Origin: Halomonas sp. TD01
Lineage (GTDB): Bacteria; Pseudomonadota; Gammaproteobacteria; Pseudomonadales; Halomonadaceae
Reading direction: 5' to 3'
NCBI RefSeq assembly: GCF_923868895.1
Contig: NZ_OV350343.1
Coordinates: 3,162,001 to 3,226,000 of the forward strand
Length of the DNA: 64,000 bases
The notes beneath the pieces were generated by a model that worked only from the letters and a program-made list of their open reading frames with translations, searched no databases and was not told the origin of the DNA. Shown here piece after piece: positions 3,312-10,566 of the stretch. The first letter of the stretch is position 1, and each line of letters opens with the position of its first letter. The position numbers were made by a program, and so were the translations under genes.

Positions 3312-3386
3312 GTCGGGTAGCAGCAGTGCATTACTGCACCGCCGCCCCCTAAGAACCGTACGTGCGAGTTTCCCCGCATACGGCTC
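3312..3386 (-). ncRNA. Group II intron domains V and VI, copy A
   Basis: Domain V is the 34-base hairpin 3386-3353. It begins GAGCCG, carries the catalytic AGC triad and ends CGGTTC. Domain VI follows, with an eight-base-pair inner stem around the loop GTAA and an outer GGG/CCC stem. The A at 3318 is left bulged, seven bases from the 3' splice site, which is the usual branch-point position. The intron ends in CGAC, fitting the AY rule. Confidence 0.9.
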
Positions 3387-3392
3387 AAGCCT

Positions 3393-7890: not shown

Positions 7891-8922
7891 CTTGCTGTCC
7901 TCCGAATGAATGCCGATAAGACGCCCTTCGGAGAACAGATACATTGATCCCTTGCGGGAGTGTATGTGCTCCCGCAGGGGTGAGATAAGGCCGCTAACTT
8001 GCTCGGCTATCTCTTCGTAATATCAGCATGATTGAGCGCTTTAGAGCGCTATCACGCGATTAAAGACCAGCTGGACGTAGGCCCCGTTTCCGGTAGAGGA
8101 ACGTTTAACCTCTTATCCGCCCCATTACAGGGCGGCATTCGCTTTTTCCAGCCTCCTAAACCCGCACCATTAACAGCTCGCCTCACGGCTTGCCTGCCCG
8201 GTAGGGCAATAGTACGGGGTTTCCGAGTTCCGCATCATGGACACGGATCACTTAGACCCTGCCAGTACACCGTAGGTCTGTTGGTAACGTATCCCCAGAT
8301 GTAAGAGGGATAACCGACCCAATACCTTTTGGTCAGAGCGTGTCAGTAGCTTACGCTCCTTGCGGCTGACGGTGCTTGTTAGCAGTTCACTTACGTTGGT
8401 CATATGATCCAGCCTAGCCTCTCACCCGCATGCTACTAGCGGGATCTTCAATGGACCTCACGGCCGCATTAAACCCCAAGAGGGGGAGTACATTGTCAGG
8501 ACGCTTGGCACCTTACCGTTACCGGCGACGCACTGCCCCTAGGCTACTGCTGGTTACACAGCAGGTTCCGCTTATATCGTTACCGCTACATACGGTTTAG
8601 ATACATGGAACCATCCAGAATACGGCTTCGCACCGGATAGGCAGCTTAGCCAAATAATAGACACGAATATCCCCGCTACATCACATTCCCAAAAATAGAA
8701 ATGTTTCAGCGTGTACGAATATCGCCAAAGCGAAAGGTACGAGCAGACTCATACCGGAAAAGGGGTATTTACCCTAAGGTAATACCCGATATCCGGACTG
8801 AGACAGCCCGAATATCGGGTTTATTAAAAATGCTTCTTGCGCGGTTGTGGTCACTAACGTTAAGTTAGTGACCACTTCGTCTGTAGACCGCTAGGCAAGC
8901 TACCTATACGACTCTCGTCGCA

Positions 8923-10566
8923 CTACATCATGCCGCCCATGCCACCCATTCCGCCCATGCCACCCATGTCTGGGGCAGCGTCTTGCTCTTCTGGATCGTC
9001 AGCGATCATGCACTCAGTGGTGATCATCAGACCAGCAACAGAGCCAGCGGACTGCAGTGCAGTACGGGTTACTTTAGCCGGGTCCAGAACACCCATTTCG
9101 AACAGGTCGCCGTACTCACCAGTTTGTGCGTTGTAGCCGAAGTTGCCTTCACCGTCTTTCACGCGATTGATAACCACAGCGGCTTCTTCACCGGCGTTAG
9201 TAACAATCTGGCGCAGCGGAGACTGCATAGCGCGCAGCGCCATGTTGATACCGTGGTTTTGGTCTTCGTTGTCGCCAGTCAGGCCTTGTACTTTAGCCAT
9301 TGCGCGAACCAGTGCAGTACCGCCGCCAGGTACAACGCCTTCTTCTACTGCAGCGCGGGTTGAGTGCAGAGCATCTTCAACACGTGCTTTCTTCTCTTTC
9401 ATTTCTACTTCGGTAGCCGCACCGACACGAATAACAGCAACACCGCCGGCCAGTTTGGCAACGCGCTCTTGCAACTTCTCTTTGTCGTAATCCGAAGACG
9501 TTTCTTCGATTTGCGCACGGATTTGGTTAACGCGTGCTTCGATGTCGTTTTCTACACCAGCGCCATCGATGATGGTGGTGTTCTCTTTAGACATCGTCAT
9601 GCGCTTAGCGGTACCCAGGTGATCCAGGTTCGCTTGCTCAAGCGTCAGGCCAACTTCTTCAGAAATGACGGTGCCATTGGTCAGGATAGCGATATCTTGC
9701 AGCATCGCTTTACGACGGTCACCGAAGCCGGGTGCCTTAGCAGCAGCAACTTTAACGATACCGCGCATGTTATTTACAACCAGCGTTGCTAGCGCTTCGC
9801 CTTCGATATCTTCAGCGATAATCGCGAGCGGTTTGCCTTGCTTAGCAACGGCTTCCAGCACCGGCAGTAGTTCGCGGATGTTGGAGATTTTCTTGTCAAC
9901 GAGCAGAATGTAAGGGTCTTCTAGCTCGACAGACATGGTGTCTTGGTTAGTGACAAAGTAGGGCGAGAGGTAGCCGCGATCAAACTGCATACCTTCAACG
10001 ACTTCCAGCTCGTCTTCGAAGCCACGACCTTCATCAACAGTGATGACGCCTTCTTTACCAACTTTTTCCATCGCTTCAGCGATGATCTCACCGATGCGCT
10101 TGTCACCGTTGGCAGAAATAGTACCTACCTGGGCGATAGACTTAGTGTCGGTGCAGGGAACAGACATCGCCTGAACTTCTTTTACTGCCGCGCTAACTGC
10201 TTGGTCGATGCCGCGCTTCAGGTCCATCGGGTTCATGCCAGCAGTCACGCCTTTCAGGCCTTCAGCGATAATTGCCTGGGCCAGAACCGTTGCTGTCGTG
10301 GTGCCGTCGCCTGCAGCATCAGAAGTTTTGGAAGCAACTTCCTTAACCATCTGAGCGCCCATGTTCTCGAACTTGTCTTTCAGTTCAATCTCTTTGGCAA
10401 CCGATACGCCGTCTTTGGTGACGGTGGGGGAGCCAAAAGACTTGTCCAGTACCACGTTACGACCTTTCGGGCCGAGGGTAACTTTTACTGCGTTAGCTAG
10501 AACGTCTACGCCACGCGCCATACGTTTGCGGGCATCATCGGAAAACTTAACTTGCTTAGCTGCCAT
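8923..10566 (-). CDS. groEL: 60-kDa chaperonin GroEL, stop codon interrupted by group II introns
   Basis: This 547-residue GroEL forms the double-ring ATP-dependent folding chamber that works with GroES in the cytoplasm. The sequence is full length from MAAKQVKFSDDARKRMARGV to the flexible GGM-repeat tail ending GGMM. ATP-site motifs such as TLGPKGRNVV and GDGTTTATVLA are intact. The coding sequence ends TA followed by the intron's G, giving TAG in unspliced RNA. Precise removal of both introns joins TA (8925-8924) to A at 3311, giving TAA. groES lies 58 bases upstream in the same operon. Confidence 0.98.
   Translation of the reverse strand: MAAKQVKFSDDARKRMARGVDVLANAVKVTLGPKGRNVVLDKSFGSPTVTKDGVSVAKEIELKDKFENMGAQMVKEVASKTSDAAGDGTTTATVLAQAIIAEGLKGVTAGMNPMDLKRGIDQAVSAAVKEVQAMSVPCTDTKSIAQVGTISANGDKRIGEIIAEAMEKVGKEGVITVDEGRGFEDELEVVEGMQFDRGYLSPYFVTNQDTMSVELEDPYILLVDKKISNIRELLPVLEAVAKQGKPLAIIAEDIEGEALATLVVNNMRGIVKVAAAKAPGFGDRRKAMLQDIAILTNGTVISEEVGLTLEQANLDHLGTAKRMTMSKENTTIIDGAGVENDIEARVNQIRAQIEETSSDYDKEKLQERVAKLAGGVAVIRVGAATEVEMKEKKARVEDALHSTRAAVEEGVVPGGGTALVRAMAKVQGLTGDNEDQNHGINMALRAMQSPLRQIVTNAGEEAAVVINRVKDGEGNFGYNAQTGEYGDLFEMGVLDPAKVTRTALQSAGSVAGLMITTECMIADDPEEQDAAPDMGGMGGMGGMGGMM

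Follow-up and report, generated by a model that had tools for sequence, protein, structure and literature searches.

A Zero-Gap Pair of Identical Group II Introns in the groEL Stop Codon of Halomonas sp. TD01, Probably Made by Retrohoming into an Occupied Site

Introduction

Retrohoming is usually pictured as ending once the target site is filled. How, then, could two complete copies of one group II intron come to stand at a single site? This question is raised by the groEL locus of Halomonas sp. TD01, which we analyzed within a stretch of 64,000 nucleotides (contig NZ_OV350343.1, positions 3,162,001 to 3,226,000; hereafter, the window). Here, two identical introns lie head to tail in the stop codon of groEL. 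We consider that one mobile group II intron is present here as a side-by-side pair, which probably arose by retrohoming into an occupied site. Coordinates below are those of the window, and all features of this locus are on the minus strand.

Architecture of the Tandem Pair

Copy A (6118..8923), which adjoins groEL and is proposed to be the newer copy, and copy B (3312..6117), which adjoins the 3′ exon and is proposed to be the resident one, are both 2806 bp long and are the same in every base. The maximal exact repeat with a period of 2806 is 3312–6117/6118–8923 exactly; it does not extend into either exon, and its limits coincide with the splice boundaries of the intron. The two copies meet at 6117..6118 (...TACCCGAC|GTGCGACGAG...) with 0 bases between them, just as an earlier reading made from the letters alone (the sequence-only reading) had claimed. 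The source genome, 4,142,565 bases long, is assembled as one contig, and searching it at E ≤ 0.001 returned copies A and B as the only intron matches, with no third copy.

Both units start with GTGCGAC and end with CCCGAC, and they show the hallmarks of group II introns, namely a GUGYG 5′ end, an AY 3′ end, and a bulged branch A in domain 6. In copies A and B alike, the matches to Rfam models RF00029 and RF02012 exceed the gathering thresholds. Domains 5 and 6 occupy 6118..6194 in copy A and 3312..3388 in copy B (RF00029, 66.5 bits each), and their predicted fold (−47.5 kcal/mol, z −7.05) contains one bulged A, 7 nt from the 3′ end, which is the branch-point-like A at position 6124 of copy A. 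A piece of domains 1–4 was recognized at 8418..8565 and 5612..5759, respectively (RF02012, 109.1 bits each). The start, the domains V and VI, and the AC end described in the sequence-only reading are thus borne out.

Two complete introns therefore stand at one exon junction without any exon between them, which defines a side-by-side pair. A nested arrangement (twintron) was ruled out, because both units are complete and abutting and the body of neither is interrupted. A circularly permuted group II intron was ruled out as well, because the junction is flanked by complete introns on either side. Across the junction, domains 5–6 directly precede the next domain 1.

The 5′ exon ends with ...GGCATGATGTA and the 3′ exon opens with ATGCACCCC. 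The insertion point splits the stop codon of groEL (8923..10566, 547 aa) as TA|A. The first G of copy A turns the stop into TAG, and the first A of the 3′ exon completes a TAA stop once both introns are out. Since the insertion falls at TA|A, GroEL is complete whether the transcript is unspliced or spliced and whatever the number of copies. The earlier placement of the insertion at the end of groEL was correct and can now be refined to the inside of the stop codon, between TA and A, which is the position of the groEL stop-codon intron lineage. The start of the 3′ exon (ATGCACCCCTGAGCC...; 3231..3311, with an arbitrary lower limit) is supported by empty sites in genomes of the same genus. Its ATGCAC resembles the intron start GTGCGAC; this likeness was considered as a special cause of the tandem and rejected, because the same 3′ exon is present in single-copy relatives and in empty sites.

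Each copy encodes a 581-aa protein in an open frame (6199..7944 in copy A and 3393..5138 in copy B), and the two proteins are identical. Domain scanning of the copy-B protein identified RVT_N, RVT_1, GIIM, and HNH domains, and its score against the NCBIfam group II reverse transcriptase (RT)/maturase model was 378.5 (cut-off 300). A YADD motif and the HNH region can also be read in the protein, so that the maturase gene is intact in each copy, as had been noted. The ratio of nonsynonymous to synonymous substitution rates (dN/dS) is about 0.10 against the introns of two related loci (L035 and L036), by which the protein looks constrained. Relatives of this protein are carried by 1645 records in a plasmid search.

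The final six bases of the 5′ exon, GATGTA (8924..8929), form a candidate intron-binding site 1 (IBS1). They are complementary to TACATC, the candidate exon-binding site 1 (EBS1), which is located at 8298..8303 in copy A and at 5492–5497 in copy B, in a small predicted loop read as UUACAUCU. The 91-nt stretch around this loop folds no better than shuffled sequences (z −1.17). Of the 16 loci compared, the window counted, 14 have the EBS1 motif TTACATCT; the other two, which are 5′ remnants, are without it. Pairing between intron and exon was recognized through EBS1 alone.

The groEL Site in Related Genomes

The sequence-only reading had suggested a comparison with the groEL loci of relatives, and this comparison revealed either one intron copy or, in many genomes of the same genus, clean empty sites. 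Intron DNA was matched in 6 of 82 genus genomes, the genome of the window included. Three of them (G049, G077, and G074) have one intron each at the groEL stop; in G074, whose assembly is rated 74% complete, the intron protein is broken. G032 retains only the first 165 bases of the intron at groEL, and G039 has an empty groEL site with intron pieces on other contigs. The ligated-exon string GGNATGATGTAATGC was found in 41 of the 82 genomes. All 30 places that were returned with their loci read TA^A; 29 follow a groEL-like end and one (L109) follows another inserted element. The 3′ exon starts exactly with ATGCACCCC in 13 of these 30 places.

In a wider sample, the groEL|intron junction was detected in 11 of 390 genomes of the order, the window counted, although in one of them (G543, locus L063) it is not at groEL itself; in the class sample, the window is the only case among 369 genomes. 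For comparison we tabulated 16 loci, comprising the window, a Thalassotalea locus, four from the genus, and ten from the order; the Thalassotalea locus was found by a junction search and is therefore a biased draw. The 3′ boundary is visible in 13 of the 16. In eleven of these, a single copy is followed by an ordinary 3′ exon; in the other two, those of the window and of Thalassotalea, the boundary leads into another intron.

Several of these loci have peculiarities of their own. At the boundary between groEL and the intron in L035 (G049; minus strand, 3637), TG|ATGCGAC stands in place of TA|GTGCGAC; the first G is lost, the frame stops at TGA, and the copy may have become unable to splice. 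Directly after groEL, L034 (G032:C88) and L060 (G536:C275) each retain a solitary 5′ remnant of the intron, in which the first G still gives TAG; selection for this stop may preserve such stubs. In another genome of the genus (L113; G059:C1:2076001-2094500, plus strand, 3291–4661 and neighbors), an inserted element of about 13 kb occupies the 3′ end of groEL. It carries a phage-type integrase, type I restriction–modification genes, and a defence-type reverse transcriptase, and it ends at a second CGGCATGATGTAATGC. Because this element is inserted there, the end of groEL is a target of integrases as well as of introns.

Locus L063 lies about 8 kb downstream of the groEL of its genome, beside other inserted genes. 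Its intron is related to that of the window and is followed by G at position +1. The 5′ flank resembles a groEL end; its last 17 bases equal the end of groEL in the window and have one mismatch to the groEL of its own genome. In the same genome (L112; G543:C34:176901-193500, 2576–7216), a QatA-QatB-QatC-QatD defence set comes directly after groEL, with two further groEL-end-like sequences downstream, the second of which adjoins the intron with G at +1.

Other Zero-Gap Intron–Intron Junctions

Other junctions of this kind were sought with a pattern in which domain 5 is followed by a domain 6 whose free length is limited, and then by AY and GTGCGNC. Across the entire genome_contigs collection, from which records of or near the genome of the window may be left out, it matched six stretches, of which four are real junctions (L003, L004/L029, L005/L030, and L008); in these, the last base of the Rfam match to the intron 3′ end directly precedes GTGCGAC. 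The other two stretches (L006 and L007), in which that match does not reach GTGCG, were dropped as chance occurrences. No zero-gap junction of this kind was found in viral contigs.

A search of the order (381 genomes) for domain 5 by itself gave 51 places in 38 genomes, and the junction pattern was matched in three genomes (that of the window, G498, and G479), a rate far above that in the genome_contigs collection with its six stretches. A fourth case in the order, G643, has an intron starting with GTGTG and was recognized by how far apart its domain 5 copies lie. Zero-gap junctions thus hold at least 4 of the 51 domain-5 matches, the window counted, and 3 of 49 without the two matches of the window.

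Four junctions join unequal introns that can be read on both sides. In a Thalassotalea metagenome-assembled genome (MAG; L029), at groEL, the upstream intron is 3399 bp long, has both ends, and contains a 557-aa open frame. Downstream of it is a remnant that keeps the core of domain 1 (RF02012, 85.9 bits), is 94.4% alike over 248 nt, and aligns poorly in its 5′ part. From their sequences, these look like two different introns, and a recent plain duplication is therefore not what made the Thalassotalea pair. In Streptomyces sp. MBT53 (L030), a 129-nt 5′ piece with 94.6% identity comes directly after an intron that has both ends. The remaining two are in chromosome-sized contigs. On the 5.16-Mb contig of G498, the upstream intron keeps both ends and contains a 2.3-kb repeated element that interrupts it; downstream of this intron is a 118-nt identical 5′ piece, itself interrupted. 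On the 6.00-Mb contig of G479, an internally deleted intron with both ends precedes a 5′ piece of at least 77 bases (94.8%). Both ends are present in the upstream copy in all four cases (4/4), and the 3′ end is missing from every downstream copy (4/4); only one domain 5–6 match was present per stretch, with about 7 to 9 kb past the junction covered.

The remaining junctions differ in kind. L115 (G643:C40) consists of an interrupted IS66 transposase gene followed by two perfect head-to-tail introns of 1861 bp, which belong to another class (RF01999) and encode RT and maturase domains but no HNH; the contig stops on the last base of the second copy. L003 (JAPHTE010000206.1, a Lysobacterales MAG) is a 3460-bp contig whose 99-nt exact terminal repeat yields a closed intron unit of 3361 bp without flanks. 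The repeat ends exactly at the intron 3′ boundary; in the same MAG, the groEL site is empty and the remaining contigs contain no further strong intron match. In L008 (a Cloacimonadales MAG), the zero-gap junction is near the contig start, and the downstream intron sequence was judged by eye.

The sequence-only reading had regarded tandems of full-length group II introns as rare. This holds for perfect full-length pairs, of which L115 is the only one beyond the window, and it is consistent with only four real junctions in the genome_contigs collection, whereas the share of domain-5 matches in the 381 order genomes that sit at zero-gap junctions speaks against it.

Possible Origin of the Tandem Pair

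A reasonable scenario is as follows. An intron ribonucleoprotein (RNP), either spliced from the resident copy or arriving with an identical one, would read the 5′ exon through the EBS1–IBS1 pairing, which is seen in the sequence and which the RNP presumably uses. An occupied site would stay a target, since the resident intron leaves the 5′ exon intact. Between an empty and a filled site only the bases past the insertion point change, the first of them from A to the G of the intron, and the RNP would need to tolerate this G at +1. If the base 5′ of EBS1, a U, should pair with position +1, then a U–A pair would change to U–G, but this is only a possibility. For Ll.LtrB, the described reverse-splicing sites in cellular mRNA have IBS1/2-like motifs and no δ′-like base on their 3′ side (PMC6248898). 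By analogy, a poor +1 base need not block insertion, because those sites lack a matching 3′ base. The intron RNA would then reverse-splice between ...GATGTA and GTGCG... and be copied into DNA, so that the new intron would come to lie directly upstream of the old one with nothing between. As for splicing of the pair, either copy A would leave first, or the 5′ site of A would be joined to the 3′ site of B, removing 5.6 kb at once. Copy B could splice only after A, because its 5′ neighbor is the end of copy A, which is without GATGTA. With GroEL stopping at TAG before splicing and at TAA after it, the pair may well be tolerated by the host.

Re-homing upstream into the same 5′ exon, which had been proposed in the sequence-only reading, is the best-supported route. 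It is favored because the limits of the duplication are splice sites, because EBS1 pairs with the untouched 5′ exon, and because zero-gap pairs of non-identical introns exist. The unequal pairs, in which the copy with both ends is upstream in 4 of 4 cases, agree with an intron inserting where the 5′ exon meets the intron of a site already filled. The solitary 5′ remnants at groEL (L034 and L060) indicate that such targets exist, and the G at +1 in L063 can also be counted on this side. For the identical copies of the window, re-homing is nevertheless what we infer rather than what can be read from them.

Several observations weigh against this reading. Copies A and B being identical, neither the newer copy nor the order of events can be read from them, and for the same reason they do not separate re-homing from circles or dimers of RNA or DNA. 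The junction is present in only 1 of 275 genomes of the family, that of the window, and in the genus, the three loci that hold one complete intron include no tandem (0/3). EBS2 and EBS3 were sought in the intron and neither was located. Of the 12 3′ exons that can be read in the intron lineage, 11 have A at +1, with later bases varying, so that A may be preferred there and an occupied site may be a poor target. The G at +1 in L063 may be secondary, for its groEL-end-like 5′ flank has other inserted genes next to it, and an intron-less groEL-end-like site near it reads ATAGATTTT. The junction pattern fixes only the inner ends (upstream 3′ and downstream 5′) and leaves the outer ends free to differ; downstream 5′ remnants are therefore also what the search permits, and 5′ stubs may simply be common. 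Finally, the pair in G498, with its identical 118-nt 5′ pieces, could also be explained as a duplication.

An alternative route, unlikely in our view but deserving attention, would start from end-joined circular intron RNA copied into DNA, or from a linear dimer. Homologous recombination or reverse splicing would then bring this form into the resident intron and yield a perfect head-to-tail pair. Head-to-tail multimers of intron-alpha DNA occur in Podospora. Perfectly end-joined RNA circles are reported to be the majority of Ll.LtrB circles (PMC6248898), and the flankless closed unit of L003 would also agree with such a route. However, the end of L003 at the exact intron boundary suggests a chromosomal tandem at which the assembly graph branched more than it does a circle opened at some arbitrary point. 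Moreover, circles or dimers should give like copies, whereas the Thalassotalea junction joins two clearly different introns. The route also requires circle-primed complementary DNA (cDNA) followed by recombination, and we know of no report of this in bacteria, although no search for one was made. Another possibility is that the copies arose by re-homing long ago and have since been homogenized by gene conversion; perfect 2.8-kb direct repeats do convert and recombine readily. Yet such repeats also collapse readily, and no other junction of this kind was detected in the 82 genomes of the genus or the 275 of the family, the window counted, which makes an old pair rather improbable.

It is also improbable, and somewhat more so, that the true locus has one copy and the second is an artefact of assembly. 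The perfect pair of L115, situated at a contig end, could be taken as a hint in this direction. In the window, on the other hand, the intron is present nowhere else in the genome, which leaves no dispersed repeat to mis-join, and the letters of the junction should derive from reads; comparable junctions also lie inside two other chromosome-sized contigs (5.16 and 6.00 Mb). Ordinary tandem duplication through slippage or end joining is a frequent origin of large direct repeats in bacteria. At this locus, though, the repeat ends are both splice boundaries and are devoid of microhomology (A vs. C on the 5′ side, A vs. G on the 3′ side), and unequal crossing over between two chromosomes needs a second copy, of which there is none elsewhere in the genome. 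We regard an origin by either process as very improbable.

Beyond this locus, and as a tentative generalization that we would not yet call probable, group II introns may lack immunity at occupied sites. The 5′ exon would stay a live target, and in several intron classes and phyla homing would place each new copy immediately upstream of an older one. Downstream copies would decay to 5′ stubs, and permuted, composite, and circular introns would naturally derive from stacked pairs.

Relation to Known Systems

The groEL intron of Azotobacter vinelandii is said to have been first described by Ferat et al. in 2003. For two Azotobacter species, a groEL intron near the 3′ end of the gene is discussed in relation to the termination codon (PMC4465626). 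In that account, the A. vinelandii intron, like that of the window, encodes an RT and is close to the 3′ end of groEL, but it is described as single; the likeness noted here is one of description. Side-by-side introns are described in fungal mitochondria (Hypomyces cox3 and Ophiostoma cox3/cob), for which ratchet-type or composite splicing has been proposed (PMC8393795). They resemble the present pair in being two neighbors at one exon junction; however, they are organellar group I introns and, in the text available, are not described as identical copies, whereas those of the window are identical group II introns. In prokaryotes, group II introns that target introns are represented by the Thermosynechococcus twintrons and the nested arrays of Methanosarcina (PMC2882425). 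These introns lie inside one another, while those of the window are end to end, with no base interrupted. According to these sources, the intron type, the groEL site, nested prokaryotic group II introns, and side-by-side fungal group I introns are already known. Among the matches listed from open-licence literature, none describes full-length group II introns that are identical and stand head to tail at a single bacterial site, which does not prove that no such description exists.

Multimers of intron alpha arranged head to tail are also familiar from Podospora senDNA, the extrachromosomal DNA amplified in ageing mitochondria. Like the pair in the window, they are exact head-to-tail group II intron DNA; unlike it, they are extrachromosomal and mitochondrial rather than chromosomal. 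Circularly permuted group II introns share with the window junction the order of domains 5–6 before domain 1 (PMC8637638). As described there, they contain a linker and have no complete flanking introns, whereas the junction in the window has complete introns on both sides. A tandem pair is a plausible origin of permuted introns, a link that is proposed here and not in the available text of PMC8637638.

The perfect stacked pair, together with the unequal pairs in which the copy with both ends is upstream (4/4), makes the assumption about filled sites directly testable. The tandem also offers a natural substrate for studying how a ribozyme picks between two identical sets of splice sites. Circularly permuted group II introns could plausibly have started from such a junction, where their domain order already exists, and the position in the stop codon is a possible reason why the host bears the pair.

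Additional Observations in the Window

Away from groEL, direct repeats about 1.08 kb apart and 77–97% alike were observed at 38751–40838, where they overlap open reading frames (ORFs). These ORFs are downstream of a long ORF (35804–37900) that appeared VgrG-type-like by eye. The repeats look like an older gene duplication.

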